Shown here in pieces: positions 9,802-52,400 of a DNA stretch of 64,000 bases. The notes under the pieces were generated by a model. The model worked only from the letters and a program-made list of their open reading frames with translations, ran no database searches and was not told the DNA's origin. Origin of the DNA: Cymbomonas tetramitiformis (Eukaryota; Chlorophyta; Pyramimonadophyceae; Pyramimonadales; Pyramimonadaceae); assembly GCA_001247695.2 (NCBI GenBank), contig LGRX02035080.1, positions 1-64,000 on the forward strand, given 5' to 3'. Made by a program: the position numbers and the translations under genes. How positions within the stretch are numbered: the first letter of the stretch is position 1; each line of letters opens with the position of its first letter.

Positions 9802-12058
9802 CTACCCAACTGCAAACTGCCGAGGCGTGTGAGTCTTATTGAATCTGGCTTGGCTAATTTCTGCTGCTCGGGAAATGTTGTCTACCGCGTTGACATGAAC
9901 AGCCGAGTACTGGTCAAACTGATCTCGAATAGCTCTTTGTATTGGAACAGGAGCTTCTGGCGGAATAGCGATTACCAGGTCATGAGGCGAAAGTGGTTGC
10001 GCCATCGAGTCGAGATAAAATGGTGAATAACCAGTTGATGCAGAAACTGTGTTGTTAATTGCAAACTCCACCAGAGGCAACTTGTCCTCCCACGAATTGG
10101 CTGAAGTATCATTGCAACAACACCTGAGGATATCCTCGATGAAGGCATGGCTCCTCTCATTGGCTGCATTCGACTGTGGATGGTGTGAGGACGTCATAGA
10201 CAATCTTGTACCAGTAGATTTCCACAGTGTTTGCCAGAATGTAGAGGTGAATCTGGGGTCTCGATCTGAGATGATGTTCCTCGGAAGACCATGGAGCTTG
10301 AAGATATGCTGCATATATATAGAAGCAGTATGCTGAGCTGTCCAGGTCATGCTGAAGGGAATGAGATGACAGCGATGAGAAAATTGGCACATTACCACAA
10401 ATATACTGTCGTGCCCATTAGTGGTGATAGGCAGGTCAGTAATCCAGTCAAGAGATACATCTAGCCATTTTGTCTTAGGCACAGAATATCGTATATGTGC
10501 CTGACCATAAGGCTTGTGTCGCCTCGTTTTCTGGCGCTGACAAACGGGGCACTCCCGAATGTACTTGATGGCTGCCGTTGTCATTCCTGGCCAATAATAC
10601 CGGCTACGCAGAAGATGAAGCATGCGATTTTTGCCTACATGACCAGAAATAGTGGCTGAGTGGCACTCATGAAGGAGAATGTGGCGAAGCTGTGTGATCT
10701 CACCGTCATCTGTGGGGACTTTAGCTGTTGGTGGAATGTACAGCTGTCTGCCATATATGGTCTTACGATAGATCAACCCCTGAATGAGCTCGAAGCTGTA
10801 GCTGCTGACTGACTGTGATGAAGTCGATGATGTCAGCTTAGCCAAAATAGTCTGTGCAAATGTATCACGATCATATTCGGATATAATGATGTTGTGTAGC
10901 TGATGAGCTGATGAAGAAGATATAAGAGCAATGAATGTAGGATCTGCAGATGGCATGACTTCGCTGATGTCCATGTGCTGAAGACAATCAGTGAGTTCAA
11001 AAAGTGCAGAGATACGAGTGAGTGCGTCTGCAACCTTATTCTTATCGCCAGCAATATGCTCTATACGGAAATTGTACTCGGAGAGCTCATCCAACCACCT
11101 TGCCTGTTTGGGGCTCAGTGTGGATTTGGACTGGAAATAAACCAGTGGCCGATGATCTGAGCGTACAATGGTCTCAGGAGCTCCCAACAAGATGTGGCGA
11201 AAGAATCGGAAGCCCTCCACAATGGCAAATAGCTCGATCTCAGGAATAGGCCAACGTCTCTGTGTATCGGATAGAGTGACGCTGTGATAACCACATGGCT
11301 TCATACCTTTTCCTTGATCCTGGAGTATCACTTGACCAACGTGTGTGCCTGATCCATCGACCTCCATAATAGATGGCAGTTTCTGATCTGGAAGCTGTAG
11401 TACTGGAGCGTTACAGATGGCACTTTTGAGGTTATCAAATGCCTGCTGCTGCTCAGATTCCCAGACAAACTCTGCATTATCTTTAAGGAGACGATTGAGC
11501 GGCTCGGCAACTTTGGAGAACTTTGGTATGAATCTCCTGAATTGACCGACCATGCCCAAGAATGACCGAAGGGATGACTTGCCATCTTTAGCCATACGGC
11601 GTAGAGGCTGTTTTCCAACGGTAGGACCATAAGACACTGGAGGCTGAATTGCCATAACTGCTCGGATTCTGTCTTCGATGATGGACAAGCCTGCTTCAGA
11701 GATGTGATGTCCGATGAAATCTATAGATCTGACGAACAACTCCACCTTGGAAGGCCTGATGAAGAACTGGTGTTCTCTGCAACGCTGGAGAAACTGTCGG
11801 ACATGACTCACGTGGCTGTCAAAATCCGGACTGTATACGATGGTATCGTCCATGAAAATGACAAGGAACCGATCGATGAAGTCGAAGAATGCCCGATTTC
11901 CTACACGTAGAGCTGTTGCAGGAGCATTGGTCAATCCGAAAGGCATGACTGTCCACTCATAGGAACCGTATCTGGTGCGAATAGCTGTTTTGTGAATGTC
12001 ATCTGGATGTATAGGAATCTGATGGAAAAACTGATTGAAGTCAAATCTGCTAAAACAT
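9802..12058 (-). pseudogene. pol: Chromovirus pol fragment: RT-RNase H-integrase
   Basis: The RT catalytic box reads FMDD, near 11850, after MPFGLTNAPA. RNase H follows with SDHRPLVYF and the end motif KVADALTR. The integrase zinc-binding domain shows the HHCC pattern (HECHSATISGH then CPVCQ). The DDE core includes SLDWITDLP, ISDRDPRFTS and the final Glu in NAANERSHAFIEDIL. An extra segment of about 20 residues with GKQPLRRMAKDGK sits between the RT palm and the SFLGMVGQFRRFIPKFS motif. The frame ends in a TAG (9804-9802) just before the integrase C-terminal domain, which continues in the same frame to about 9610. Truncation upstream and this stop make it a dead copy. Confidence 0.9.
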
Positions 12059-16397: not shown

Positions 16398-16770
16398 TAT
16401 CGGTCCAAAATTTCGTCCGTCCGTCCGTCCAAAAACTCGTCCGTCCAACTGACGGACCAATTTTTGGACGGACGGACGGACCAAACATTCTTAACATTCT
16501 AAGATTTACAAAATTAGGGCTCCCATACTTAAGCCCATACTTAAGGAGGGTAACGCGTCGGCCCGCGTCGACGCCTGCGTTTTCCCATACTTAAGAAAAT
16601 TTAAATTTTTTCTTCATACTTAAGGAATATACACTTACTCCCCCCTCCCCCCCTGACCAGGAACTCAGGGGGTATAACCCAGTCGCATGCGAGTGTCAAA
16701 CGTGCGTTGCGTCAGAGAGACGAACTCAACGACAGAGCTTGACAATCGTATACGATTGTCACACGTGAGT
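16398..16770 (+). repeat. Left terminal inverted repeat of the 9.8-kb element
   Basis: Pairs with 25848-26218 on the opposite strand. Shared blocks in order are CGTCCGTCC runs, TTCTTAACATTCTAAGATT, TAACGCGTCGGCCCGCGTCG, AAATTTAAATTTTTTCTTC, CTCAGGGGGTAT, and AACGACAGAGC followed by the palindrome. Confidence 0.9.
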
Positions 16771-16819
16771 CTGGTTGTCGGACCTAGTGCACCTGCTTGA
16801 CAATCGTATACGATTGTCA
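16740..16819. promoter_or_regulatory. Two 22-bp palindromes (copies 1 and 2)
   Basis: Each is the half-site TGACAATCGTA followed directly by its reverse complement, at 16740-16761 (inside the terminal repeat) and 16798-16819. They lie 180-260 bp upstream of the first plus-strand gene. A TGAGTCTGGTTGTCGG-like tail follows both. They are candidate protein-binding sites. Confidence 0.75.
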
Positions 16820-16997
16820 ATATGGTGAGTCTTGGTGTCAGGTGTGCTGCACATAGACATATCGGGGCGTCTAAGGTTCAGGGTTTTAGGATATATGTTG
16901 GATATATATATTGGAGGAGTTGTAACCGGAGGTCATTTCATCACACCTGCGTTCGTCACATAGAACCACAACCCGCCCCTTAGACTACCTCACCATT

Positions 16998-17498
16998 ATG
17001 CCCAGTATTGGAATATTGCAGTATTGGATATGGCCTTTCGATACTTTTACGTTTCGCGACTGCCAGTTACAACAAGCCCAATGGGTTCCTGAAGACCGTT
17101 TAATTCTCCGCTTGTGGCGGCGAGCGCGGCAACAAGCTGAAGAAGACTGGGAGGACTTCGGGCAACATGCAGTTAATCTCAGGACCTATCACTGGTGGAG
17201 TTTTTGGCCGATGTACGTCCACGGCCGTAGATCCAGCGAAAGGTTCGGGGTGAGGCATCTCGTGTACTGGTATGAGGGCGGGTGGATCTACCACCGATAC
17301 TCAGATTTGGAGTGGCGGGGCTGGCGAAATAGACACCGCTACAGCGAAACTACGCACGGTGCCCTGACAGAGCTGGAAAGCGATCTGCTGCAGGAAGATG
17401 AAAGGAGATGCGAAGGTTGCGGGCGTATGTTCAGAATCTGCACCCTAACGCGCATAATTAATGCTAGCGCGTGCAATGAGGAGACATATGCTTGGTAG
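16998..17498 (+). CDS. Hypothetical Trp/Tyr/Arg-rich protein with a C-terminal CxxC
   Basis: A 166-residue frame starting at ATG 16998, with an unusual load of Trp (about 14) and Tyr, and one RRCEGCGRMFRIC motif near the C-terminus that could bind zinc with other Cys/His. No family recognised. It is the first of a series of short plus-strand genes in the element, preceded by two copies of the 22-bp palindrome and followed at 17604 by the palindrome that precedes the next gene. This arrangement suggests that each gene has its own promoter. Confidence 0.6.
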   Translation: MPSIGILQYWIWPFDTFTFRDCQLQQAQWVPEDRLILRLWRRARQQAEEDWEDFGQHAVNLRTYHWWSFWPMYVHGRRSSERFGVRHLVYWYEGGWIYHRYSDLEWRGWRNRHRYSETTHGALTELESDLLQEDERRCEGCGRMFRICTLTRIINASACNEETYAW

Positions 17499-17603
17499 CT
17501 AACACTTATGTCACGTGACAGTACTGAAATAAACCGTATACTTACATGTATGAAAACAATAACTTTCACGCCGTGCATACCAAAACTACCCTCTGGACAC
17601 TTC

Positions 17604-17625
17604 TGACAATCGTACACGATTGTCA
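17604..17625. promoter_or_regulatory. 22-bp palindrome (copy 3, one mismatch)
   Basis: Half-site TGACAATCGTA with the complement changed by one base at the centre (CGTACACG). It lies 97 bp upstream of the ATG at 17722, with a TATATAAG-like sequence between (about 17661-17668), consistent with a core promoter. Confidence 0.65.
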
Positions 17626-17721
17626 ACACCGTGTTGAAAGGAAGTCCCTCGAAGTTTACTGCTATATAAGTAATGTTACATGTCTTTTATTCATTTATTT
17701 TCGCAGTAAAATACTAGCATC

Positions 17722-18117
17722 ATGAATACTCCTCAGTTCATGGAAGACGCACTTGTTGAGCTTGAACGTATGTATATCGAATACGAAAAATGCAGTGTGT
17801 GCCATTCCTGGAATTTGTTCTTATATCGCGAGGAAGTGTTCATCGATCCTGCGCTGATTCCTACACATGACCCCTCTGAGGCTAAGTGGAGGTTTATCCG
17901 CGACACTCGGGAAACGTGGTATTTTCAACTGTTGGATGCGCATCGGTATCCTGGCACTACTGCGCAATATACGTACACTCCAACGCACGCCAACCCTGGC
18001 GCACTTACCCCAAAAACAATGGCGGTTCCCACAGATTTCATTCCGGAGTTGATTGACCAGGGCACAGGCTATAATCCCGAACCCGATGACGACGGAAAGT
18101 GGTGCAATTGCCGTTAG
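17722..18117 (+). CDS. Small Cys-motif protein, paralogue 1
   Basis: A 131-residue frame. It shares a layout with the next gene: an acidic/helical start, a CSVC pair, a middle part with RDTRETWYFQLLDAHRYPG, then a PxxMAVPTDFIPELI segment, and a final CNC motif. The spacing of CxxC and CxC suggests a small metal-binding fold. No known family recognised. Its preserved paralogue immediately downstream argues that this is real coding DNA under selection rather than a chance frame. Confidence 0.65.
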   Translation: MNTPQFMEDALVELERMYIEYEKCSVCHSWNLFLYREEVFIDPALIPTHDPSEAKWRFIRDTRETWYFQLLDAHRYPGTTAQYTYTPTHANPGALTPKTMAVPTDFIPELIDQGTGYNPEPDDDGKWCNCR

Positions 18118-18205
18118 GTAAAAAATACCAGGCTCCCATGCCTACTTAAGACGTGTTGTAGCGAGTTGTAATCATTTGTTTTCGCGTTCAAGAACTTCCG
18201 GAGAA

Positions 18206-18637
18206 ATGGCGTCGACACGGCAGATTGAGCGCGTCTTGCTTTGGTTAGACGGTTTTGATGAGGATGAAGATATGATAAATAATGTGTCCATTTTCGGTTA
18301 TACACCTTGCGTAAACTGTAATGCGGAAAACGTATATGTGCATTGCGAAAGGCCTATCATTCAGGGAAATTGGGACTTGGACGAAATCTCTGCAGGATAC
18401 CGTTATGTACACCGAACTCGGTTTTTCCTATTCTTTACCTTGATGCATCTCGAACGATTTCCCTCCAGGAACCCTTGGACGGGGAGGTGGGTAACGCCTA
18501 GAAATCTGAAAATACCTGTGGACAAGATAAATGATTTATTGTTACCGGAGCAGCGCGGCGAGAGTATAGAGCAATATTTAGGAGCTTGCAACTGTGCGGC
18601 GGATATGCCTGACGAGGACTTGGACTTTGGCTTCTAA
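18206..18637 (+). CDS. Small Cys-motif protein, paralogue 2
   Basis: An upstream in-frame ATG exists at 18176, but homology to paralogue 1 favours MASTRQIERV at 18206. It shares with paralogue 1 the CVNC pair, the segment YVHRTRFFLFFTLMHLERFP, the block TPRNLKIPVDKINDLLLPEQ, the terminal CNC, and an acidic tail (PDEDLDFGF). Tandem duplication within the element is the likely origin. No function can be assigned. A short spacer (18118-18205) separates the two genes and contains no palindrome, so the second may share the first one's regulation. Confidence 0.65.
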   Translation: MASTRQIERVLLWLDGFDEDEDMINNVSIFGYTPCVNCNAENVYVHCERPIIQGNWDLDEISAGYRYVHRTRFFLFFTLMHLERFPSRNPWTGRWVTPRNLKIPVDKINDLLLPEQRGESIEQYLGACNCAADMPDEDLDFGF

Positions 18638-18802
18638 GAACATGCTAATTGTACCAATTATTTTAAGAAAATAATTGTTAGTTCTAAGTAGTGTTTTATT
18701 CATACCCTGCATCCTCCACACAGCTACCATTTTCGCTACTTCCGTATACAGCGTTCTCATCATTCCATACTCGCAGTGTGGGTATGACCTAGTGCAACTG
18801 CT

Positions 18803-18824
18803 TGACAATGGTATACGATTGTCA
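18803..18824. promoter_or_regulatory. 22-bp palindrome (copy 4, one mismatch)
   Basis: Differs by one base (TGACAATGGTA) and is followed by CACGTGAGTCTG, as in copy 1. It lies 93 bp upstream of the F-box gene start, with ATATAAGG at about 18871-18878 in between. Spacing is nearly the same as for copy 3 and its gene. Confidence 0.65.
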
Positions 18825-18916
18825 CACGTGAGTCTGAGTGTCGAAGCTATTGCCCTTCGGCTGTTTCGAAATATAAGGGGTTGAAGTAATAGATAAACGT
18901 CATTTTTTTACACATA

Positions 18917-19815
18917 ATGCATCTTCCGAATAACGTCTTGTTAAAAATCTTTCAGGCCATTCCTTACGGACCTGATCATTCCAATGAACCGTTATGTATG
19001 TATCTCGGGAATCTCTGCCGAATAAGATGTGTCTGCGTACAGTTCAATGATACAATAATCGGGCGTGCGCAACCCGCGCTAAGTGTTGGGCTAGTCCCTT
19101 GCGGCAACGCTATCACCCGCTCTCTTCTTACCGCCTACATTTTTTTATGGAAGACGCCAACCTTCGTCTCTTAATTCACCGAGCCCATGTCTCCCTCCTA
19201 CGCCTACAAAGCATGTTTCATCAAAAGTATCCTGAAATGGTGGCTCCTAGCGGAATGTGCATGTCTCCGAAATTAATCGCGGACCACCTCAAAATGTTCG
19301 CGCTGGACACCATTCTTTTAACCCCACTGCCCGAGTCCCCCCACGAACATGTTTTACATGTCCGATTCAACTCGACTGAAAGATCAGAATCGTCCTCACT
19401 TCCCATATTGGAATGGCAGATTCGATGTGGCGATGATACCTGCTCCCCATTCGTTTCCATGCTCCATGTGCCCAATGTTCCGTTAGTAAATATCAGTGTG
19501 TTGTTCCGTTACGATGACCTGTCAAACGCTGGGGTGTGGGCCATCGATAGCTTATCAAACGCGCCGGCAACCAATAGAATTTTGAATCGTTACCCCGATG
19601 TGTACATGACATGCCGGCTTGCTGCACGCGTGATACGCATTGTAGATCAATATTTGCGCTCTGGTCGCTCCTATTTCCATCCGGTTCCCCGTGAAGAGAG
19701 TTTAGTTGCCAAAGTATGCCAATGTATGACATTGACAAGAAAAACACTTCAACAACATGAACTCGACAGTACAACGGATGGGCTCGGGGGATGGATCATA
19801 GCGAACGATTTATGA
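18917..19815 (+). CDS. F-box protein (one frame change)
   Basis: Begins MHLPNNVLLKIFQAIPYG and continues LCRIRCVCVQFNDTIIG, which fits an F-box: Leu-Pro start, Leu/Ile/Phe core and the Cys-x-x-Phe/Trp end. F-box proteins link Skp1-Cullin ubiquitin ligases to targets. The first frame ends at 19174. A second frame (19099-19815) continues with about 215 residues without a recognised repeat type, probably the target-binding part. The switch falls between about 19090 and 19170 and could be a 1-nt frameshift or a small intron. If it is a frameshift, the gene is broken. The 3' end converges on the minus-strand methylase gene, 165 bp away. Confidence 0.55.
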
Positions 19816-19979
19816 TCGGGTATGTGCAACATTTTTATTGTGCACGCAGATTGTATTATTACAATTATTTGGATATTTTGTGCTACCCTGAAATGTATGT
19901 TTCGTGGGTGTCCTCGGTTCTAGGGTCGGAGCCCGCCAGTGTCAAATGTACTAGCATTCATGCAGATTTACACGCTATG

Positions 19980-22900
19980 TCAAGTGTCGGGGTGCGCGAG
20001 CAACGCTGCCGCGAGAGTGCCTGTAAGCTCGAAACAAGCTTGTGGCTGCTCAGCCTCCATACCCGTGTCTGGCTGCGCAGTCCCCATGTCAAAATATTCC
20101 GCGACTTCAGTCAATTCCATTTCGTGGTCATCAGGCACATTGGCCTTTTGTTTTTCTATCAGCGCTATGTCACCTGCGAGCACCTCGGAATACCGTGCTC
20201 TGGCCATTTTCAACACCTCTGCATCCATGTCGATCGAAAGGACATGCCTTTGCTCCATATACCCCGCCATGGAGGCTGGAGCCGTTCCGCAAGGAAATTC
20301 CATAACACAAGCATCCATGTTGCTGTACAAGCGCATCAGCTCACGGTAAATCAGCGCACTGAACGCGGCGATCTCGTCATTGATATCTGGCATTTCTTTG
20401 GCTTCCATCATCCGCGACGCTGCCAGTACTGCAGGGGCCATATTAATCTGAGACCCAGCTGCTGCTTGAATCGCCCATAGCAAATGCAGGCAGTTTTCCT
20501 CAAACCCCCTTTTCGTATGGGTGATGCCCAACGTCTGCAGAAACCATGCGGAATCGTATACGGGTGCCTCAGTGTAGGCAGGGCCATAAAGCTTCGGAAT
20601 CGTGAACGTAGCCCCAAAGCGACCGGCATTTCGAATCTCGATGTAGTCATCCGGCAAGGAGTGAATGTAGCACAAGATCATACGCGTGGCTGCATAGCAA
20701 ACATCACTGTCATTAGGACTTGTAATCCTGCAACTTTTAAAAAAATACTTGTGAGGACTAACTCACCAGCGCAATCCACAAGAGTCTTGTAAGTATGCAT
20801 GGTATCCTGCGATGACTTATTCACACTCTTGTCCATAGCCCTTCCTTCCTTGGAATCAACGCGCTTCCATCGTTTTGCTTTCATCATGCTCTTCATGACC
20901 TCATCGAAGCGTGCAGTGTAGAATTTGTTGGAAGATTTGATTAACATCCACACCAGAAGCTTGGTTTCCAAATCAGGCTCTCTGTGGACGTCTTGCATAA
21001 GTGTCTGGTGATGCTTTTGCACGTACGTCATATGCTGCGAATCACGGTAAAATTCCCCATCAAATTCATAGGGTCCCCAAGGGTTGTCAGCTTTTAGTTT
21101 GAGTATACTATCCTGCGTATCCTCATCATCATCATAGACGTCCATCATAGCCTCTCCGGATATATACCAATCTGGGTATTTAGTCCAACCCATCAGCGAG
21201 GCAAACTTGGCCTTGGCAGATTCGATGACATCCTTGATGAAACCAAGACGATGACAATACGAGCTGAACTCAGTGCCAGTCAAAAACTTGCCCTTGCAAC
21301 TGATCCCATATTTCTGGTAGAACTCCTTCCGTTTGTCCACATCGTCCACTAATACTCCTTGCTTCGCCACATTAAGAACAAAGAAAAAATATCGTACATC
21401 AAACCCTAAGGCTGATAGCGAGGTGCTTATAGCCTCTAGGGTAAGAACAGGCTGCAGTTCTTTCGGATAGTTCTTCAACTCGAGAGCTTCCTTCCGCCAT
21501 TCATCTCCCAGTTTTGGATCCAGTAACCGCAAAATCTGCAAGCAAGACACGTTGGACACATGTAAGGGGGGCGACACGCTTGTCACGCGTGGGTGAGAAC
21601 TGAAGCTTGCGCCAAAGCTTGACAATCGTATACGATTGTCACGCGTGAGTCAGGGGCGAAGCTAGCGCCAAAGCTTGAGAATCGTATACGATTGTCACGC
21701 GTGGGTGAGAACTGAAGCTTGACAATCGTATACGATTGTCACGCGTGGGTGAGAACTGAAGCTTGACAATCGTATACGATTGTCACACGTGGGTGAGGAC
21801 ACATGAGAGAGCGCGGAAGTTTCATACCTTTTGCGCATCCCGCTCGCGCGATTGGAGGAGGGCAACTTTTGCCGATTGATCCCGAAGTTTGGAAATCTCG
21901 TTCGAGTAGGCCGCCGCGGTCGTATCCCTCAGATTATTCCGATACCAAGCGTTACTCTTGGCACTAGCTTGCCTTACCGGGAATTGTGTAAAATGCGCCA
22001 GTTGGTCTTCCGAGGCGTCGGCAATATTCAACAGCAAAATCCATTTATCGTGTTCGTGAGAGTCAACAAGACTTTCTGTTTGGTCGGTGTTCGTCAGTGT
22101 CCCGATAAGGCTCTGCGCAAACCGAAACTTGTAAAAAATTCATTCATGTACACACGGTATTTTATTGAAACGATGAAACAAACGATATCATACAAGGATC
22201 GCTTACCAAAACACAAAGAGGTGTTTCTTTCTTCAGAATTGTAATCGTTGTGGCCAACCCCTCCAGAGAGGACCTATTACTGGTCCCGGTACCGCTCCAG
22301 AATGCTTTACGTTTCCTTGCGTCCAGGACAAGGTCAAGCCAGGCGTCATAGCGATGCTGGCCATCCACCACGACAAGCTGCATTCGCATGAACTTGTTTT
22401 TCACCCACTTCTTGTTGTCATCAGGACCACTATCGAATAGACTGAGATAGTCGGTCTCCAGATTGTGCACCATGTTGTTGAAATTGCTTACTTCCTCAGG
22501 AGCCTCCGCATCCGCCGCTGCAAGCAACCGAAATGAACTCAGGTCTGACAATCGTATACGATTGTCAAGCTTTGTAGGAAAGTCCCGAACCCTTGCATAA
22601 TACTAGTGCTGACAAGCAATGCCTCACCGGGATAAAACTTGGACATGAGCATTTGCCTATACTCTTCGTCCGTGTAATAGTGTCCAGTCCACCACGCGAT
22701 GACATGTGATTTGTCCACCTCCCATCGCTCCATGATGACCTTCTTCTGCTTCTCTATTCCCTCTTGTGAAGTCGCGCGGGTAAACGAAAGTCGGTTTGAG
22801 TCCCCCTGAACATCAGCAGGGTAAACGATATTTGACACGAAGTGGGAACTGATTCCGCGCGATCGAGATGTCATCAGACCTGAGACAGGTCGTCATCGTC

Positions 22901-25339
22901 ATTTCGCCGGATCCGAGGTGCCATGCCACCGCTGCGAGGTGCACACGGTAAAGCTGCGAACGGAAGGTCAAAGGCAAAGGGGAAGGCAAAGGGTTTAAGA
23001 TTTAGCGGCAGTCGGAATAGTTTTCAGAAGCATATGGAAAGTATTCTAGTGCTTCTGAAAACTATTCCTACTTCTTCTATATCCTAAACCCTTTGACTTT
23101 CCTTTTACTGCTGCACGCGACCGGCAAGCATCTTTGAAACTTCCGAGTTTCAAAGATGCGTTTTGTATTTTGGGTGCACCCTAAAATTACAAAACAGCCG
23201 AGCGCTTCCCGTTTGTGCGGGATATTCACATGTATTCCATGAAATATTTCATATGAGTTAACACACATGCACACGCAGGGGAAACCCTCGGCTGCTTGGC
23301 ATCTTTGGGTTTGGGTTCGAACCCAAACCCAAACCCAAAACATCTGCCTTAGAAATAAATTGCGCGTTTCGCGCACAAGTAACTTGAAGCCTTGAGCTTC
23401 AAGTAACTTAAAGATATGTATCTTGGCAGCATTTGTGCCAAGCTTCGTGCTCTAGGACGCACGGGAAGCCCTCGGCTGTTTGGCATCTTTGAGTTTGGGT
23501 TCGAACCCAAACCCAAAACATCTGCCTTAGAAATAAATTGCGCGTTTCGCGCACAAGTAACTTGAAGCCTTGAGCTTCAGGTAACTTAAAGATATGTACC
23601 TTGTCAGTATTTGTGCCAAGTTTCGTGCTCTAGGACGCACGGGAAGCCCTCGGCTGTTTGGCATCTTTGGGTTTGGGTTCGAACCCGAACCCAAACCCAA
23701 AACATCTGCCTTAGAAATAAATTGCGCGTTTCGCGCACAAGTAACTTGAAGCCTTGAGCTTCAGGTAACTTAAAGATATGTATCTTGGCAGTATTTGTGC
23801 CAAGTTTCGTGCGCTAGGACGCACGGGAAGCCCTCGGCTGTTTGGCATCTTTGGGTTTGGGTACGTTCGAACCCAAACCCAAAGGCAAAGGCAAAGGACA
23901 GTTTCGTAGATTCTGTCCCGATGCCTTCGCAACCTCGCATGCTAACTCATATTATATTGAATATTCAACATTCAAGCGTTGGATACCCCACGCCAACGGG
24001 AAGCGCTCGGCTGATTTGTTATTTGGGTATGCGCACCCAAATGACCAAAAACGCATCTTTGAAACTCGTAAGTTTCAAAGATGCGTGGCCGATGCCTTCG
24101 TGCTTATGTGTATATTTCATATGAAATATGCCATGGAATAAATGTGAATATCCCGCACAAACGGGAAGCGCTCGGCTGTTTTGTAATTTTAGGTTGCACC
24201 CAAAATACAAAACGCATCTTTGAAACTCGGAAGTTTCAAAGATGCTTGCCGGTCGCGTGCAGCAGTAAAAGGCAAGGCAAAGGGTTTAGGATATAGAAGA
24301 AGTAGGAATAGTTTTCAGAAGCACTAGAATACTTTTCATATGCTTCTGAAAACTATTCCTACTGCCGCTAAATCTTAAACCCTTTGCCTTCCCCTTTGCC
24401 TTTGACCTTCCGTTCGCAGCTTTACCGTGTGCACCTCGCAGCGGTGGCATGGCACCTCGGATCCGGCGAAATGACGATGACGACCTGTCTCAGGTCTGAT
24501 GACATCTCGATCGCGCGGAATCAGTTCCCACTTCGTGTCAAATATCGTTTACCATCAGCAGGATGTACCAGCAAGCCAAGAGGGGCAACTACTGGAAGCT
24601 TTTTGTCTTCTCGAGTATTAAGCTGGGGACGAAAAGTCCATTCTGAGATCACTTTTTTGATATTCAGCGGTCCTGGGAATATGTAGTCTTGCATGTTGTC
24701 GTCATCAGTGGTCCCAGATATCGCTGCCTTACCCTTCGGGTCACGAGCACGCTTTGGCGGTGGTGCACTCCCCGAGGTCTCGGGTGCAGGAGCTGACGCT
24801 GCCTCTGGCCCTGCCTCTGGCGGTGCATCTGCATCAGCTTTTCTCTTACCTAGCATTCTTTTAAGAGTGCCAGCAGCTTTAGGTGCGTCCCGATTCTTCA
24901 GTAATGCAACAGCTGTATCAACTATCTCCTTATTATCTCCACCTTCCACAAGGGCCCGAATTCCACTCTCGAGGTCTTTCTTCTCCTTCTGTTTATTTGT
25001 AGCGGCATACTCGAGCATTAGCGCAACGACTTGCTCAGCTGGTTGCTGAGCTGGTTGCTGAGCTGGTTTCGGCGCACCAACTGTAATAGTCAGCTTTCTT
25101 GGCGATTTAGCTGTAGCTTGAGGATCACTTGCGACTGGAGTGGCATCTTCACTTGCGACTGGAGTGGCAGCTCCTGCGGTACCTGGAGCAACACCAGCGG
25201 CGGGTAACTCATTTGAACCACCTTCACCGGATGCCAAAGATCCGCTCTGAGAGGCCTGTGCACCTCCGGAGGCCATACGCTGTAAATCTCTCATTGAGCC
25301 TCCGATTTTCTTTCGAGCGGTTTGTTTTGTACGAGCCAT
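19980..25339 (-). CDS. H3-tail mimic / ParB-like / methyltransferase-like multi-exon protein, interrupted by a nested transposon
   Basis: Exon 1 starts at 25339 with MARTKQTARKKIGG. The first nine residues after Met equal the histone H3 N-terminus (A1-K9), with two changes (S10K, T11I), then G12-G13. A Ser/Ala/Pro-rich linker and basic patches (KRMLGKRK, PPKRARDPKGK) follow. The frame is broken at 24552-22821 by a nested element and resumes in phase at 22820. The next exon (about 22551-22165) carries VVVDGQHRYDAW, the DGQHR signature of ParB/sulfiredoxin-fold proteins (22365-22351). Further exons are about 22075-21828 and 21535-20767. The 292-nt intron between them (21827-21536) and the 77-nt intron after 20767 (20766-20690) keep frame with GT/AG ends. 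The last exon (20689-19980) holds MDACVMEFPCGTAPASMAG then HVLSIDMDAEVLKMARARY, resembling motif I and the acidic loop of DNA methylases, but the usual FxGxG is altered and no DPPY is evident, so catalysis is doubtful. The exon borders around 22560-22820 and 22075-22165 are uncertain. Joining all parts into one protein is inference. Confidence 0.65.
20690..20766 (-). other. Predicted 77-nt intron of the methylase-like gene
   Basis: Donor GTGAGT at 20766 and acceptor TATGCAG ending at 20690. Exon ends join in frame (VDCA to ATRMILCYIHS). A nearer acceptor (TTGCAG, 39 nt) would shift into the frame that stops shortly after. Confidence 0.65.
21536..21827 (-). other. Predicted 292-nt intron carrying four palindromes
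   Basis: Donor GTATGA after codon AAG (21828) and acceptor GCTTGCAG ending at 21536, phase 0 on both sides. It holds four of the twelve 22-bp palindromes. Confidence 0.6.
21620..21785. promoter_or_regulatory. Cluster of four 22-bp palindromes (copies 5-8)
   Basis: At 21620-21641, 21676-21697 (one mismatch, TGAGAATCG), 21720-21741 and 21764-21785. Spacings are 56, 44 and 44 bp, each copy followed by CACGCGTG or CACACGTG. They lie inside an intron of the minus-strand gene. Confidence 0.75.
22546..22567. promoter_or_regulatory. 22-bp palindrome (copy 9)
   Basis: A perfect copy at the boundary between two exon-like segments of the minus-strand gene, probably in or next to an intron. In the exonic reading of the left frame it encodes LTIVYDCQT, which also appears where other copies are translated, so the site is unlikely to be genuine coding sequence. 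Confidence 0.65.
22821..23256 (+). repeat. Left inverted repeat of the nested foldback element
   Basis: Complementary to 24117-24552 with a handful of differences. It contains smaller nested hairpins, for example GAATAGTTTTCAGAAGC facing GCTTCTGAAAACTATTC around 23020-23070 and GCATCTTTGAAACT facing AGTTTCAAAGATGC around 23127-23160. Confidence 0.88.
23278..23880. repeat. Interior tandem repeats of about 180 bp
   Basis: Three full units and a partial one, starting near 23278, 23459, 23639 and 23819. Each has CCTCGGCTG(C/T)TTGGCATCTT, a GGGTTTGGGTTCGAACCC palindrome, AAATTGCGCGTTTCGCGCAC, and the inverted pairs AACTTGAAGCC/TTGAGCTTCA and CTTGGCA/TGCCAAG. The unit is rich in small hairpins and non-coding. 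Confidence 0.85.
24117..24552 (-). repeat. Right inverted repeat of the nested foldback element
   Basis: Mirror image of 22821-23256, ending CGTTTAC at the insertion point. Confidence 0.88.
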
Positions 25340-25556
25340 GCAATAATGAAATCAATGACACCCCGACATGCATTTATAGGGCTGCAGGTACGCACCTCCC
25401 TCACGCCCGGCAGCCACAGCCTGTGCCTTAGCAGTGGGCTTTCTGACTCTTGTGACCTCCCTGTAGACATCTGTAAAATTATGAATTATTTTAATATTTT
25501 CCTAGTATATATAGATAAAGAAAATCTATAAATATATCTACTACAATACTCACGTG
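25340..25556 (-). promoter_or_regulatory. Upstream region of the H3-mimic gene
   Basis: Lies between the ATG and the palindrome repeats. An AT-rich stretch (about 25470-25540, including TATATATAG on the plus strand) could hold the core promoter. No precise start site can be called. Confidence 0.4.
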
Positions 25557-25856
25557 TGACAATCGTATACGATTGTCAAGCTTCGACCGTACGGTTAATC
25601 ATGTTCAGATGTGCACGAGTAGTGACAAACTCTTCGCGAATATCCAGGCAGGGTTATACGACATGCAATAGGATACACGATCTCGGCGCTAAGTCTCTCT
25701 CACGTGTGACAATCGTATACGATTGTCAAGCTGAAACCGTACGGTTAATCATATTCGAATGTGCACGAGTAGTGACAAACTCTTCGCGAATATCCAGGCA
25801 GGGTTATACGACATGCAAAAGGATACACGATCTCGGCACTAAGTCTCTCTCACGTG
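25557..25856 (+). repeat. Two tandem 150-bp units
   Basis: Units 25557-25706 and 25707-25856 differ at a few positions. Each holds one palindrome, CCGTACGGTTAATCAT, and GTGCACGAGTAGTGACAAAC. The exact 150-bp period keeps the binding sites on a fixed pitch. Confidence 0.85.
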
Positions 25857-25878
25857 TGACAATCGTATACGATTGTCA
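25557..25878. promoter_or_regulatory. Three 22-bp palindromes at 150-bp spacing (copies 10-12)
   Basis: Perfect copies at 25557-25578, 25707-25728 and 25857-25878, each preceded by CACGTG and followed by AAGCT. The last is inside the right terminal repeat. They sit 218-540 bp upstream of the H3-mimic start codon, mirroring copies 1 and 2 upstream of the first plus-strand gene. Confidence 0.75.
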
Positions 25879-26218
25879 AGCTCTGTCGTTGGGTTCGTCT
25901 GTCTGACGCACGTTCGAAACTCGCATGCGACTGGGTGATACCCCCTGAGTCCTTGGTTAGGGGGGGGGAGGGGGGAGTCAGTGTACATTCCTTAAGTATG
26001 AAGAAAAAATTTAAATTTTCTTAAGTATGTGAAAACGCAGGCGTCGACGCGGGCCGACGCGTTACCCTCCTTAAGTATGGGCTTAAGTATGGCAGCCCTA
26101 TTTTCGAAAATCTTAGAATGTTAAGAATGTTTGGTCCGTCCGTCCGTCCAAAAAATGGTCCGTCCGTCCGTCCAAATCTTGGACGGACGAGTTTTTGGAC
26201 GGACGGACGAGTTTTTGG
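25848..26218 (-). repeat. Right terminal inverted repeat of the 9.8-kb element
   Basis: Complement of 16398-16770. The outermost part has two to three GGACGGACGAGTTTTTGGAC units, one more than the left end. Confidence 0.9.
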
Positions 26219-28704
26219 ACGCGTCACTGGACTAACATCCTATCTCTGATCTTGGCGTTGAAAGACTCCAGGAACGTTTGCACCTCCTCCTTGGTCATCG
26301 CGTCGGGAGTCTTCTCCTTGTCGAGCGCGTAATTGCAGTCGATGACCGCCCCCGTGAAGGGCAGTCTCGGGATGTCCTTCAAATCGTCCATACATGCTGC
26401 CCTTGACGATCTTCCAACGAGGGAACATCGGCACGTCCTCCTGATGTGTGGGCTCGTCGCCCTCCAGGTCCGCCTCTCCTGCAACCTTAGGCTCCGGCCC
26501 GTCGGTCCGCGCCTCCCGATACAGTTTGATGTCGACTTTCAACTCGACCTGTTGCAAGCCTAAGATGTGAGCCGCGCTTGGCGCCTGCGCTTCTTTGAGA
26601 TTTGCCCGCGCGTTCTCGACGAAATTGAAGATCGCTAGCGGAACTTCCCCAGACCCGCCCCCCCGGCGCGCTCCCCCCTTCGCGGACTGTAAGCAGCCGA
26701 TCAGCGACTCGATTTTCTCTTGGGAGCTCCAGTAGCTGGTGAGCTCCGTCTTGAATTCGTCCCAGGTTTTGCAATCCTGCCGCGGACACCAAGTGCTTCT
26801 GCACCATGCGTTCCTTCTTAAACTGGCTTATCATATTGCCCCCCTCTTTTAGTGAGATCTCCTTCTCAATAACCAGGCGCAGATACGTGTCCACCTTGTC
26901 GAACTCCGCATCGCCCGCCAAGCCGCTCAAGTTAATCCAGAACGTCATACCCATGGATTTGGCATTGTGGAGAAACTGAGCTTCTTCCACCAAAATCCCT
27001 GCCCCTCTAGACGAGCCCCCCGCTCCGTCCCCGCCTCCTCGTTGCACCTCGTCTTCCAAAGTAAGGGCGTTCCATTTATTGTCGCGGGGGTTAGGATATG
27101 GCACTTGACCCCCCCACCACCCCAGCGGACATCATTTCTTCCCCCCACCTCCCCAGCGGACACTCTCCACTGTTACCTTTAGCAACCCATACCCACCCAC
27201 CCAGCGGACAACACCTGCCCACGGACAGCGCCATCACGTGACCCCACCACCCGGACAAAAAACGGAAATCCTAACCCCCGCGACAATAAATGGAACAGCC
27301 CTAAAAAAAACATTTTTAGCATGTCTCAAAATATAGAAAAGAATGCTTTGGGAGGGAAAACACTGTATGAAGCAGAAGCAAAAAATAATTTACCTGTCGG
27401 TTGGAGGTGGCCTTTTTGCCAGCTTTCTTGGAGGGTCCGCTAGCGGGCGAAGATGAGGCCTTGCGCTTTTTGGTCTTCGAAGCTAAAGGGTTTTTCATGC
27501 CCTTCAGGTCAAACCTTCTGTAAGCCTCCATGATGCTAACGCAGAGGTTCCACGTCTGCGGCCGGAAATTTGCAACGGTCCAGTGCATGAAGTAGACGTT
27601 GATAAGCGTGCTGCCGAATACGGAATGCTTGGACATCGCTATTTGCTTCACATGCGTCTCCATCGACTGGTTCAAGTGAGACATTACGGGGTACCAACTT
27701 GTGACCCGATCGAGCGAGGTGAGCGTCGATGTCATCGTCCAGCACCGTCACCGTCTGCTCTCCCTCTTCCTGCTCCCCCGTCGCCTGCTCCTCGATGTAC
27801 TGGAATCCCTTGGGATATTTCACGGGATCCGGGATTGCAAATCCATGCTCTGATTCGTATGTCGCCATTTTTTCCACCGGCCCTCCGGCCTGGTACCGCC
27901 CAGGTTGATGAGTGTCACCCTCTTCGGCGTCCTCGGGGACGCTGGCTTCGAACTCGGAGATCAACGCTTCTCGGTAGATGGTGTACACGACCCCATGCTT
28001 TTCGAAAAGGGTCGAGCGGAGCCCTTGCATGAACTGAGTGTTGTCTTTACCTTTTTGCTTCTGATCGATCGAGTTCTGCATCTCGCCTAAGAATCGAACC
28101 ATGCCATGTCAGGCGTGAGACTGATGTAGATCTTGCTCTCGAAGGACTGGAAAGCTACCTCCAACGGGACTTCCTCGTTACACTCGTCGGTGGCTTGATA
28201 ACAATGCTGGTGCCCAAAAGCCTTGCCTCTGTATTCTCCCCTCAGTGCTTTTTTCAGGGAGAATTCGGCACGGGTTTTGACATCGTCGATCGCAACGAGA
28301 CCCGCATTGAAAGGGGCCCACGGGTTCTCCTTCCTGCCGGACTTGATCTCGTTCACCCAGCCCCTCTCTTGATCCCGGCAAGCCTCGTACCCCTTCGCGT
28401 GGTACAGGCATTCGATGGGGAGACGAAACACACTCCCTTGCTCCGCCGCCTCGTCTTTCGACATCGGATTCGGCCACCGGTGCTCCATCTCGATTTTCTT
28501 GCACAGCTCAGCTTTCTCCGCATAGTCTAACTTTGCTGCATGCTCCACTTTCAGCTTAGCGTGCCACCCATGTGCAGCCTCCTCGGCTGCCTTCCTTGCC
28601 TCAGAGGGGGTGGCCACTTGAGACATATCCACATTAGCGCCCGCTCCAGTATACACTCTGGAGCCACCAGGTCCTTGAAGGGCGCGTTGGGCAGCAAGCC
28701 CCAC
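26219..28704 (-). pseudogene. N-terminal and central part of the outer methyltransferase gene, decayed
   Basis: Minus-strand coding can be followed in pieces: 28704-28087 (charged, with RGWVNEIKSGRKENPWAPFNAG), 28102-27720 (with YESEHGFAIPDPVKYPKGFQYI), 27710-27397 (HWTVANFRPQTWNLCVSIMEAYRRF, then a Lys-rich tail ending at a GTAAAT donor), 27060-26780, 26557-26400 and 26400-26224. The last piece (GAVIDCNYALDKEKTPDAMTKEEVQ) sits where the DPPY motif IV region should be. Continuation lies at 16397-15668 across the 9.8-kb insertion. Frame changes near 28090, 27715, 26780 and 26400 mostly lack good splice signals, so the gene is a pseudogene. A 237-bp MITE lies within it, and the 5' end abuts another inverted-repeat element at 28719, so the true start may be lost. 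Confidence 0.6.
27065..27301. mobile_element. Harbinger/Tourist-like MITE
   Basis: 237 bp with inverted ends GGGCGTTCCATTTATTGTCG (27065) and the near-exact complement ending GCCC at 27301, flanked by TAA on both sides (27062-27064 and 27302-27304). A TAA/TTA duplication with ends starting GGGC fits PIF/Harbinger MITEs. The interior is C-rich, with three copies of CCCAGCGGACA. Confidence 0.8.
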
Positions 28705-47860: not shown

Positions 47861-48284
47861 TCAAGCATCGGGAGGTAGAGCCAATTTGCCAAGGACGAAG
47901 GTCACGGCCCTTTTAAGCAAAGAAGGGAGCGAATCGCATTGTGATGCCTCTGCAGATCGGTGCGTCACTCGCACATGTGCTTCAACGAGCGTCACTCGCA
48001 CATGTGCTTCAGCGAGCGTCACTTGCACATGTGCCACAAGCACGGACCCGCGGATGGCCCAGGCGCAGCAGCCGCGGGCAGCGAGGAATGCCCTGCAAGC
48101 TGCGCATGAGGCAGCACAGCGAGCGTGCGCACAGCGCCAGGCACGGCTGCAGGTGGAAGACCTCGTGGATGCCTTTCCTTTGACCAGGCGACCAGTGCCT
48201 GCCGTGAACGATGTTTTCTTGACCATCGCACGACGTAGGGACGACGTAGCATTTTTCTCCGAGCATTGTGACCACTTAAGCTGA
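47861..48284. other. Low-copy spacer between satellites
   Basis: Contains an internal triplication, GTCACT(C/T)GCACATGTGC(T/C)TCA, at 47965-48030. Open frames on both strands overlap, so coding status is undecidable. Confidence 0.4.
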
Positions 48285-48391
48285 CGTGGCGCAGCCCGAT
48301 TGTCAAATTCCAGGCGAAATTTGTGCGGTGGCAGGAATCCTTTATCAGAAGTTTGCAAATTGGTGGAACGTGTCATCACCCAGCCTGCAGC

Positions 48392-49430
48392 CAATGGCAG
48401 AGGTGCGCGCCGTGTGAGCGGCAACGGGGCGCGACAACCGCTGTGCCCGACCTGTAGCCAATGGCAGAGGTGCGCGCCGTGTGAGCGGCAACGGGGCGCG
48501 ACAACCGCTGTGCCCGACCTGCAGCCAATGGCAGAGGTGCGCGCCGTGTGAGCGGCAACGGGGCACGACAACCGCTGTGCCCGACCTGCAGCCAATGGCA
48601 GAGGTGCGCGCCGTGTGAGCGGCAACAGGGCACGACAACCGCTGTGCCCGACCTGCAGCCAATGGCAGAGGTGCGCGCCGTGTGAGCGGCAACGGGGCGC
48701 AACAACCGCTGTGCCCGACCTGCAGCCAATGGCAGAGGTGCGCGCCGCGTGAGCGGCAACGGGGCACGACAACCGCTGTGCCCGACCTGCAGCCAATGGC
48801 AGAGGTGCGCGCCGTGTGAGCGGCAACGGGGCGCGACAACCGCTGTGCCCGACCTGCAGCCAATGGCAGTAGTGTGCATTGCGTAAGCGGCAACGGGGCG
48901 CGACAACCGCTGTGCCCGACCTGCAGCCAATGGCAGAGGTGCGCGCCGTGTGAGCGGCAACGGGCGTGATAACCGCTGTGCCCGACCTGCAGCCACGGCG
49001 CAGGTGCGCGCCTCGGTGTGAGCGGCAACGGGGCGCCGACAACCGCAAAGCCCGACCTGCAGCCAATGGCAGAGGTGCGCGCCGTGTGAGCGGCAACGGG
49101 GCGCGACAACCGCTGTGCCCGACCTGTAGCCAATGGCAGAGGTGCGCGCCGTGTGAGCGGCAACGGGGCGCGACAACCGCTGTGCCCGACCTGCAGCCAA
49201 TGGCAGAGGTGCGCGCCGTGTGAGCGGCAACGGGGCACGACAACCGCTGTGCCCGACCTGCAGCCAATGGCAGAGGTGCGCGCCGTGTGAGCGGCAACAG
49301 GGCACGACAACCGCTGTGCCCGACCTGCAGCCAATGGCAGAGGTGCGCGCCGTGTGAGCGGCAACGGGGCGCAACAACCGCTGTGCCCGACCTGCAGCCA
49401 ATGGCAGAGGTGCGCATCGCGTGAGCGGCT
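48392..49430 (+). repeat. 67-bp satellite, about 15 copies, with higher-order duplication
   Basis: Unit starts CAATGGCAGAGGTGCGCGCC and ends CCGCTGTGCCCGACCTGCAGC. Variants (ACGGGGCG, ACAGGGCAC, GGGCGCAAC, CTGTAGC) appear in the same order in 48392-48760 and 49065-49400, showing a duplication of a five-to-six-unit block. Because 67 is not divisible by 3 and the unit has no minus-strand stops, all three minus frames are open for about 1 kb. These long frames should not be taken as genes. Confidence 0.95.
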
Positions 49431-52400
49431 TGGGCATGCCAGCAACGTTGTCGTGTTAAATGGATCTTCTGTTTTGAGATTTTTATGTGTCACCCGCTAA
49501 CCATTAAGCGTTTTTTTTCTGTGCACGATCCCGATTTGTCAACTGGAGCATTTTACGATCAGTAGGTGCTGCGTGCAAATAAATTAAGCTTTACTCCAGA
49601 GGCGCAGAGGGCAATCAAAAGCGCAGCAATTCAAACTTTTGCTCAAGGGCGATGTTTCGAACGTGTTCTCGGAGCTTGCAGTGCTGACGCAGTGCTGAAG
49701 CAAAGCGTTGCTTTTGAGCTTCGTCGACTTCGCGCGCCCAATACGCGGCCTGTCGTTCTTGCCAAAAAGAAGCACCGCGCGAAATGCCCGATACTCTTAC
49801 CCCCACTGGGCCACAAGTGTTGTCACAGAAAGCTTCCACAAGAGCGTGACTCGTGCTGATAGTGTTCGGCTAGCCGCGTCCACGTGTCACTGGTGCGCAC
49901 GGAGTGAAACTTGACGGGCGTCCGGTGCGAGTCGGTCCTCGCTATGGACCTGTTGAGTTCGCTGAAAAGAAGGGCATCCAGGCGAACTCACGTGCTGAGG
50001 GTCTTTCGCGGCGGTCTCTCCGACGTCGCGAAACAGTTTCCTGCCGACAATCTTCGCCGTCAGCTCCACTCGAACTTTGAGGCAGCCACTCGGCTCCTGT
50101 GCCCGTGGAAAATTAAGAGCCAATAAACCAACTATTCACCTCCTGATGGTGATCCCTTCAAAATACACACCACTATTCAGAGGGTGATGATCACAATGGG
50201 AATTATTCTTCGGAAAAGGCGGCGCACATCTCTCACCTTACGAGGGACAGGCAAGATACCTCCCATAAGCGCTCTCCAGAAAGATACCCAGGAGGGCTCT
50301 GCAAAAGCGCCTTTCGAGCTGGGGAGGGGCATACATATCTCAGAAGGTTCAGATGCCATTCCCGACAGCACGGCTGACGCAACGCAATTTTGTCAGCAGC
50401 GCAGGGAACGCTCAGGGCGAGCATGTGGGAGAAATGAAACCCGCGGGGGAGTGAGCGGACGTCGCACCTGGGAATCGATCTGCCTCCTTGGCGAGTCGAT
50501 ATAGCTTACGATAGGTCGAAAATACGCTTTTCATACCGACGTAATTAAGCAAGAACCTTGCCTGCATTTCGAAAGTGCCCTGTGAGACTGCGAGTGAGAG
50601 CTGAAAGCGACGACCGAGAGTCAGTCTCATGTGTAAGAAGCAGTCGTGTACATGACGCAGCTTCGTGCAGTGGAGGGCGTTCCACGAGAGAGAGTGGTTG
50701 TTAGGATATCACAAGCACGGTCGACTTTCCGTTGCGACTAGAACTTATTTGTAAATGTTTGCTTGCTAAGTAACCATCCTATTAGCATCGGCCTCTTGGG
50801 AAATATGATCCTCGCAAACGCGACAAGCATCTTCGAGGGGAGAGCGTTTTCACACAAGAACGTGCCGGAAGTGGTCACTCGCGTCACCTTGAGACTGCCG
50901 TCTTTCGTTCCAAGTTTATGGACTTCGTGCGAAAATACGTTTATCACACTCACAGGGACGGAGAGTTACCCCCTTGCTCATCCAGATCGTATCGGAATAC
51001 GCCTCCACTAACGTGGAATCCGTTCAGCGCAGTCGCAGTCTCCTTATTTAAAATATCAAAATGTATGCTGCGTGCACCTTCAGAAAAGAGGGAGCGGAAG
51101 AGTGTGTGCAGTTGTGCAGACACTATTGTTACTAAGAAGAGCATTCCTATCAAGTAGGTTGTAACGTTGTAAAGTAGTTGTATCGTGGTAAGTACTTGGA
51201 TCTTACTTGTGTCACCGTAAAGCAGCTCACTACAACTAACGAGCCACGAGCGGAGGGGACCATACCATCTCGTATATAGTGTCCGCGTGGAGCCTGAAAG
51301 ATCACACGTGGATCCTCCAGGCATTGCCAAAGCACGATGTTTGTCCACATGTCCGTCGGTTATATTGCCCCATCGGCGGAACCGCGGAAGCCTGCATGAG
51401 ACTTGAGTGTTCAGTATGAGTCCCTATCGTATGACTATTAGGCGTGAACCAATCAAGAGTCGTCGTTAAAATGGTAGTCGATTGGTCGATGGTAATTCAA
51501 CGCGAGCAAATTCAGACTCCGAGACTGAAAGTTCTCATCTTTAATGTTTCAAACTCTCCCCTTCGAGGTGGGGGCTACCCAAACCAAAATTTCTGAATTG
51601 AAATAAATTTGTTTTTCACTAGCCTGCTTTGCAGGGTTACCGCACTCTCAGGACTTTGCTAGCGTAAATATTTTATTATATTATTATCATTAAATTTGTT
51701 TCAAGGAGCAGCAAGAGGAGGGGCCGCGAAAATCGGGTTCCCGAAAACCGCAAGCAATCATACTCAACTTGTGGAATAGTAACACCACCAGTGACCCAAC
51801 ACTAGTCTCGCAAATACATACGATGCAAAGTACTGGCTACGGGGTGGAGCGGTGGCGTGACGCCGAGACAAAAACAACCGAGCTCCGTTGACGGAAATGT
51901 GTCGGCGACTTAGCCATCAAAGGGCAGCTCACGAAACTAAGTGTGTGTGTGTTTGAGGCCCTCAACCTTCTCGAACGTCTCATCAATCAACTGTTCAACT
52001 CCAAAAGAGCATGTCACGGATGTATAACTCTCTGCGTGATATTAAGATTGAACCTTGAGCGAACAAGGTTTCGGATCAGAACCATGAACGTAAACTGTGA
52101 TTGAAATAAACCAAATACCCGTTAAGTAGGTTCGGCTTCTAGGTTTCGGTGACAACCGGTGACGGTCATCCAGACTACTACAGGATAGTGGCAAGTGACA
52201 GATTTAGTGGTCACAGTGTTACTTCAAGCACACCACCTAGTGACTACTACACCACCTAGGTGACCCGAGCTAGGTGGTCCCGAAACACTGAAACACAACA
52301 AAGGCCTAATCAGCTTCTGCCCAGACGGTGAACCACTATGAGACTTGTACAGTACTTGAAGGGCGGTCTCGTGTGCAAGCAGAGAATGCAGACTAGCTAT

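Follow-up and report, generated by a model that had tools for sequence, protein, structure and literature searches.

A histone H3 tail at the start of a transposon gene

Why does a gene carried by a transposon of a green alga begin with the N-terminal sequence of histone H3, and what might the element gain from it? The question is raised by a minus-strand gene within a terminal inverted repeat (TIR) element of Cymbomonas tetramitiformis, located in the first 64,000 nt of contig LGRX02035080.1; this whole stretch is referred to below as the window. The open reading frame (ORF) that starts at position 25339 on the minus strand opens with MARTKQTARKKIGG, and its fuller N-terminal translation is MARTKQTARKKIGGSMRDLQ. 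The codons read from 25339 are ATG GCT CGT ACA AAA CAA ACC GCT CGA AAG AAA ATC GGA GGC, and the resulting tail (25298..25339, minus strand), M-ARTKQTARK-KI-GG, may be compared with ARTKQTARK-ST-GG of H3. All residues from A1 to K9 are identical and G12-G13 are retained, as a previous inspection of the letters (the sequence-only reading) had stated; S10 and T11 are replaced by K and I.

The same reading had described the remainder of the protein as non-histone, and this was borne out by Pfam scans, in which exon 1 matched no family at E ≤1 and the further pieces submitted matched no histone family. A histone pseudogene could be ruled out, as no histone fold was detected. At the sequence level, the gene encodes a protein that is not a histone but starts with an H3-like sequence, as do genes of the SNAG type.

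The position of the start codon was also considered. A TATAAA motif (25373..25378, minus strand) was read 34-39 nt 5′ of the ATG, and the TATA motif TATAAATGCATG is common to all 26 transposon loci fetched from start-pattern matches (see below). The MARTK start of the window copy is preceded by an in-frame stop codon. Two additional ATGs overlap the TATA box or come directly after it; these are taken to lie 5′ of the presumed transcript start. Removal of the initiator methionine before alanine is the general expectation for N-termini.

Copies of the tail in the genome

The genome searched comprised 851.7 Mb in 25,745 contigs. A degenerate MARTKQTARK pattern was found in 296 places, against approximately 1e-4 such starts expected by chance genome-wide and none for the reversed control pattern. 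A chance match, which the sequence-only reading had considered unlikely, is ruled out by these numbers. Thirty-one of the 296 starts have AAG at codon 5 (the H3 codon type) and 265 do not. Ten starts of the former group were read and all continue with STGG or SAGG, as H3 genes do; the 26 that were read from the latter group all belong to the transposon gene. The transposon-type 30-base pattern, with up to 3 mismatches allowed, was present in 272 places, and 100/100 among the matches listed were exact.

The exon-1 product was also compared with the genome, and for the best candidates, the only ones scored, this gave 142 matches. The alignment starts at residue 1 in 138 of these, at residue 2 in two and at residue 5 in two; an internal stop is present in none. 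From a separate comparison, which listed 138 matches, 20 further copies (74-90% identical to the query used there) were picked for divergence, and since all were required to match from residue 1, this sample favours intact starts. All 20 keep ARTKQTARK, with two synonymous and no non-synonymous changes in the codons of residues 1-9. Residues 10, 13 and 14 are variable: residue 10 is K in 18 copies and E in two, and one copy has G13V. Residue 11 is F in all 20. Beyond the tail, fair conservation extends over approximately another 25 residues, and the 5′ end therefore has conserved sequence other than the tail itself. Homologues without the tail, named by the sequence-only reading as evidence that would count against it, do exist; those found are few and result from start-codon loss, frameshift or truncation, and none of those read arose by substitution within A1-K9.

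Three loci among the ten H3-type starts that were read are of note. Locus L072 (C14271:9511-9980) is a CenH3-like divergent H3 variant, which keeps MARTKQTARKSAGGKK. Loci L069 (C9958) and L070 (C12101) begin with MARTKQTARKSTGGKA, leave H3 after residue 15 and continue with non-histone sequence; each may be the opening exon of an H3 gene with introns, or a second kind of chimera.

Outside this genome, neither relatives of exon 1 or exon 4 nor MARTKQTARK starts were found in the IMG/VR database, in which records close to the genome of the window may be missing. Contigs of prokaryote genomes gave nine start-pattern matches, of which six are H3 or H3 fragments, one (L061) reads MARTKQTARKSTGGK and then diverges within a 38-aa (amino acid) frame, and two lie in ORFs of 28 and 19 aa. 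No match to exon 1 was found in the protein database. Exon 4 gave two matches there and a 987-aa query, for which the best 8000 candidates were scored, gave one; all three are gene models of C. tetramitiformis.

Structure and domains of the tailed protein

The gene is best seen in copy L010 (contig C17515), where eight exons with GT-AG borders are joined to give a product of 1310 residues. The better copies likewise have 8 exons and approximately 1310 residues, in the order H3 tail, low-complexity linker, ParB-like motif and methyltransferase-like C-terminus. Junctions 4-5 and 5-6 between exons recur in both gene models, P0001 and P0003, and junction 6-7 in the latter. The eight-exon frame is open in 8 of the 13 loci that have all eight exons. 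Taken together, an encoded H3-tail mimic, as proposed by the sequence-only reading, is supported: the putative mimic sequence is non-random, present in high copy number, the same in divergent subfamilies, and placed at the very N-terminus of a gene with intact copies.

In the window, where all exons lie on the minus strand, the uninterrupted frame as read spans 24521-25339 (272 aa). Comparison with the uninterrupted copy L010 revealed that the first part of exon 1, with the H3 tail and the low-complexity linker, occupies 24553..25339. The end near 24553, which the sequence-only reading had taken as the end of this part of the gene, proved to be the insertion site of a nested element and not a splice site; the frame enters this element, so that the true exon 1 continues at 22810. 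Its remainder (22628..22810), recognized by homology to other copies, ends at the donor GTGAGG. Exon 2 (22207..22517) carries the ParB-like motif, exon 3 (21828..22112) was placed by homology to other copies, and exon 4 (20767..21535) ends at the 4-5 junction found also in P0001 and P0003. Comparison with other copies showed that exon 5 (20355..20689) is shortened by an internal deletion and is followed by the rest of exon 8 (19980..20350), which contains FPCGT, the motif I-like sequence of the methyltransferase-like domain, and the stop codon. Missing from the window copy are thus the end of exon 5, exons 6-7 and the start of exon 8. With its nested insert, these exon deletions and a missing upstream gene, this copy is unable to make the full protein.

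The motif in exon 2, VVVDGQHRYDAW, is ParB/DGQHR-like, with a PHROG match to ParB at E 0.16. No significant ParB/DGQHR profile match was found: PHROG gave none on the 251-aa region and Pfam no ParB family. In the C-terminal region, the motifs VDGPF (1016), QKP (1183) and FPCGT (1206; L010 numbering) are present in all eight intact copies. Their order, IV - X - I, is that of CcrM, and the distance from IV to X (approximately 166 residues) is near the DPPY-to-QKP distance of that enzyme. PHROG matched this region to a methyltransferase (E 5.8e-5) and to three DNA-methyltransferase families (0.006-0.04). In NCBIfam, P0001 matched CcrM at E 1.2e-4, far below the cut-off and ranked after a corrinoid-protein methyltransferase (2.4e-5). 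The Pfam N6_N4_Mtase match had E 0.2, and the sole match in the PDB was CcrM (E 0.07). Motif IV is DGPF in 8/8 intact copies and departs from the canonical (D/N/S)PP(Y/F/W). The C-terminus appears to resemble beta-class DNA methyltransferases with an odd motif IV, and catalysis is doubtful because DGPF is not the canonical motif. A single-sequence AlphaFold model of P0003 (mean predicted local distance difference test score, pLDDT, 35.7) was uninformative.

The transposon and its copy in the window

The only full-length copy read, on contig C25707, spans approximately 13.2 kb. It is bounded by inverted repeats of approximately 0.37 kb, at -4732..-4368 and +8117..+8480 from the ATG, with 85.6% identity. 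This copy contains a second gene, upstream on the same strand, with two exons that join to encode 1173 aa. HxH, CxFHWxQ and SWIM-like CxC..CxH motifs were read in the product by eye; we take CxFHWxQ and the SWIM-type CxC..CxH to be motifs of transposases of Mutator-like elements (MULEs). The joined product matched no Pfam family up to E 10, and hence contains no Pfam-detectable MULE transposase. By eye, no target-site duplication (approximately 8-11 bp is expected for a MULE) was recognized at the ends of two outer elements. According to the best reading of these data, the tailed gene is probably an accessory gene of a ~13-kb TIR transposon whose second gene is MULE-transposase-like.

The outer TIRs of the window copy, identified by an arm search and similar to those of the C25707 copy, lie at 16411..16770 (plus strand) and 25849..26240 (minus strand), with approximate limits. 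The 9.8-kb element of the sequence-only reading is a deletion derivative of the longer transposon, from which the transposase-like gene has been lost. The account given in that reading did not extend to the nested insert, the deletions, the methyltransferase-like and ParB-like parts, the palindromes or the transposase-like gene of a fuller copy. The nested TIR element that splits exon 1 (22821..24552) has arms with 98% identity over 437 nt, internal tandem repeats of approximately 184 bp, and a 10-bp target-site duplication, CCTGCTGATG, at 24553-24562 and 22811-22820.

The opposite strand of the element contains four ORFs. The C25707 version of the one at 19099..19815 is longer and shows a weak F-box-like Pfam match (E 0.0088, below the cut-off). 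Those at 18176..18637 and 17722..18117 have no Pfam or PHROG match, and that at 16998..17498 has none above the cut-off in the same scans. Elsewhere in the window, a Gypsy-type pol fragment was detected at 9802-11946 (minus strand), with reverse transcriptase, RNase H and integrase zinc-binding domains above the Pfam cut-offs and rve slightly below. A tandem array at 47861-49493 (minus strand; 67-bp unit, 15.6 copies) keeps long overlapping frames open.

Palindromes in the non-coding DNA of the element

The sequence TGACAATCGTATACGATTGTCA is a 22-bp palindrome with 12 sites in the window (up to 2 mismatches), all within 16740-25857. In the stretches covered, each of eight intact copies of the transposon has 8-17 sites. 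Together, these copies have 83 palindromes in 12,778 nt of intron and upstream DNA and none of the 83 in 31,530 nt of exon. As these copies are related, the fair test is that on a single copy, L010, where 0/12 palindromes lie in exons (p 4e-6).

The palindromes are situated in the introns, the promoter and the ends of the element, and the intron of the transposase-like gene also has them. Repeat and motif searches of the window revealed an array in intron 3 (21576..21797; sites 21620, 21676, 21720 and 21764), a single palindrome in intron 1 (22546..22567) and, on the promoter side, tandem units of 150 bp (25549..25886), each with one site (starts 25557, 25707 and 25857). The upstream palindromes lie in such units, approximately 150 bp apart (-239, -389, -539 and so on from the ATG). 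The length of the unit is near that of a nucleosome core, and the number of units varies between copies: copies with at least 900 bases of flank have from 1 to 7 exact upstream sites, with the exception of L045, which has none. The palindrome is a candidate target motif with the features known from VANC systems, i.e. it is dense in non-coding DNA, arranged in tandem and variable between copies.

Selection on exon 1

A tree of exon 1 was built from 31 distinct open frames, 14 of which came from the search requiring the tail and 17 from the protein match. Internal branches carry 145.3 non-synonymous and 18.7 synonymous changes, corresponding to a ratio of non-synonymous to synonymous rates (dN/dS) of 2.48 (p 4e-5), and terminal branches 109 and 30, respectively (dN/dS 1.16, not significant). 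A higher ratio on internal branches is expected if copies cease to be selected after insertion. When the analysis was rerun on 322 codons, the internal dN/dS was 2.39 (bootstrap 1.59-3.93); it was 3.12 once the alignment had been trimmed on either side of gaps, and 3.72 (p 0.003) in the subset of 17 copies that the protein match had supplied. Exon 1 is under diversifying selection. When copies were compared pairwise, exons 4 and 8 of several pairs likewise had more non-synonymous than synonymous change per site; exons 3 and 7 are little changed.

Residues 1-10 show no non-synonymous changes over the 31 copies, 14 of them found by their tail, against 8.0 expected (P 3.5e-4), and none on internal branches, against 4.5 expected (P 0.011).

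Possible roles of the tail

The tailed protein may well be a sequence-targeted chromatin effector that uses its H3 tail most likely in anti-silencing, an interpretation in which our confidence is evenly balanced. We infer that the element may evade or exploit chromatin silencing by this means, as the sequence-only reading had proposed. The case for anti-silencing is strengthened by the confinement of the palindrome arrays to non-coding DNA and by the diversifying selection, as in VANC systems. A DNA-recognizing part of the protein, probably formed by the linker with the ParB-like and methyltransferase-like regions, would anchor it to the 22-bp palindromes that the element carries in its promoter, introns and ends. 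Removal of the methionine would free ARTKQTARK, the exact H3 1-9 epitope, as the N-terminus, and this tail could be offered to host readers, writers and erasers of H3K4 and H3K9. The likeliest outcome would be anti-silencing, either because repressive H3-tail binders are occupied or diverted or because H3K4-type activators are recruited at the element.

Several observations weigh against this interpretation. No domain of the tailed gene reaches a curated cut-off in the profile scans, and the palindrome is linked no more to the tailed protein than to the putative transposase. Some H3K9-type interactions might be weaker with the replacements S10K/E and T11I/F. For the 17 copies not fetched by their tail, the absence of changes in residues 1-10 (0 against 2.2 expected, P 0.11) is not significant, and, since the DNA of the 5′ end is conserved well beyond the tail, the young age of the family accounts in part for the lack of change in the tail. 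Tail-less copies also belong here. Among the 142 exon-1 matches, the two that start at residue 2 have ACG in place of ATG and the two that start at residue 5 have a one-base frameshift in the tail; the same frameshift is present in a further copy (C22682), and in the C2836 copy unrelated sequence replaces the 5′ end, so that the tail is gone. The three frameshifted copies (L017, L018 and L095) have all lost one base from the codons of the tail, and because this deletion is shared, the tail-less form may itself have been copied.

The tail might instead recruit, or be marked by, the heterochromatin/H3K9 machinery (HP1-like readers or LSD1-like complexes), leading to targeting to silent chromatin or to self-restraint. 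The K9 context is present in residues 5-9, and SNAG domains, as described in the parts of the source considered, are a precedent for an H3-tail mimic that holds LSD1 complexes (PMC5896174). We think such a role improbable: S10 and T11 are not retained, and with exon 1 under diversifying selection, conflict seems likelier than a stable partnership.

Also unlikely is that the protein acts as a sequence-specific DNA methyltransferase, marking the palindromes or other DNA of the element, and is regulated or positioned by its H3 tail in the manner of the VRTK sequence of PAF15 and UHRF1. The conservation of VDGPF, QKP and FPCGT in all intact copies, the CcrM-like spacing of motifs IV and X and the matches to methyltransferases in PHROG, NCBIfam (CcrM, with P0001) and the PDB speak for this role; the replacement of (D/N/S)PP(Y/F/W) by DGPF speaks against it, as does the fact that the matches with a curated cut-off fall far below it.

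It is very unlikely that the transposon captured a piece of an H3 gene, which now hitch-hikes as its tail without function: the tendency of Mutator-like elements to take up host gene fragments (PMC6446971, in the parts considered), the conservation of the 5′ end as DNA and the tail-less copies, three with an identical frameshift, would fit such an origin, but the first ten codons differ from those of the listed H3 starts by synonymous changes only, the upstream DNA is (by eye) unlike that of the four H3 genes compared, and residues 1-10 are free of amino-acid changes over the 31 copies, 14 of them fetched by their tail.

If the tailed protein is indeed an anti-silencing effector, it would be relevant beyond this alga, as the resistance of transposons to chromatin silencing is understood at the protein level in few systems. 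The exact H3 1-9 tail is a biochemical handle: a short peptide and its point variants could reveal the host chromatin proteins that it engages. Antibodies against the H3 N-terminus may cross-react with the transposon product.

Comparison with known systems

The closest parallel is provided by the VANC proteins of the Mutator-like VANDAL elements of Arabidopsis. There, as here, an accessory gene lies next to the transposase gene in a TIR element (PMC5735166, PMC10398659). VANC and VANB have the VANC target motifs in their introns and VANA has them upstream, in unstable tandem repeats, a layout similar to that of the palindromes (PMC5735166), and VANC proteins, like the tailed protein, have constant and highly variable regions (PMC5735166, PMC10398659). 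The VANC21 motif has 9 bp and one orientation, whereas the motif of the transposon described here is a 22-bp palindrome (PMC5735166). Neither an H3 tail nor a ParB-like or methyltransferase-like part is mentioned in the sections of the VANC accounts considered, and the two systems are likened by description, not by sequence (PMC5735166, PMC10398659). Motif binding and loss of methylation have been demonstrated for VANC; for the tailed protein, binding to the palindrome is a prediction.

The SNAG sequence differs from that of H3. SNAG domains (GFI1, SNAI1) are likewise mimics of the H3 N-terminal tail, directed at LSD1 and carried by DNA-binding proteins (PMC5896174); these are host factors, whereas the factor described here is encoded by a transposon and has nine residues identical to H3. 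PAF15, a non-histone protein of the DNA-methylation pathway, has an H3-like VRTK at its extreme N-terminus, which is bound by the PHD finger of UHRF1; it is also a host protein, and its likeness extends over four residues (VRTK to ARTK), against nine identical ones in the transposon tail (PMC8034647). Short H3-like motifs are used by other selfish agents, namely influenza virus (NS1, ARSK) and SARS-CoV-2 (ORF8, ARKS), that of NS1 being C-terminal, whereas the transposon tail is N-terminal and comprises nine residues (PMC10208167). No word starting with 'transpos' was found in this review of histone mimics (PMC10208167), and no transposon-encoded histone mimic was among the matches listed in searches of the open-licence literature.

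Some MULEs have acquired an extra chromatin-related domain, e.g. SET in the MULE-Phytophthora_1 clade; the parts of this account considered name no H3 tail, and it gave no match for Cymbomonas, chlorophyte or methyltransferase (PMC6446971). Another source (PMC12695648) gave no match for ParB, Cymbomonas or CcrM. Retrotransposons of dinoflagellates and charophytes have acquired cytosine methyltransferases and also combine a transposon with a gene of the DNA-methyltransferase type; those are retrotransposons with C5 enzymes, in contrast to a DNA transposon with a beta-class-like domain of doubtful activity (PMC5890265).

In the parts of the sources considered, the non-histone N-terminal H3 mimics described, SNAG for LSD1 and PAF15 for UHRF1, are host factors (PMC5896174, PMC8034647). 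We tentatively suggest that a DNA transposon may have assembled a VANC-like, sequence-targeted anti-silencing factor from other parts, with an exact H3 tail as its effector, so that its palindrome arrays would carry a non-nucleosomal tail serving as a decoy or for recruitment. If true, this would be the first transposon-encoded histone-tail mimic, adding transposons to the viruses and host factors in which histone mimicry is known, and it would represent an independent, convergent origin of sequence-specific anti-silencing, with an early-branching green alga arriving at a solution similar to that of the VANC systems.

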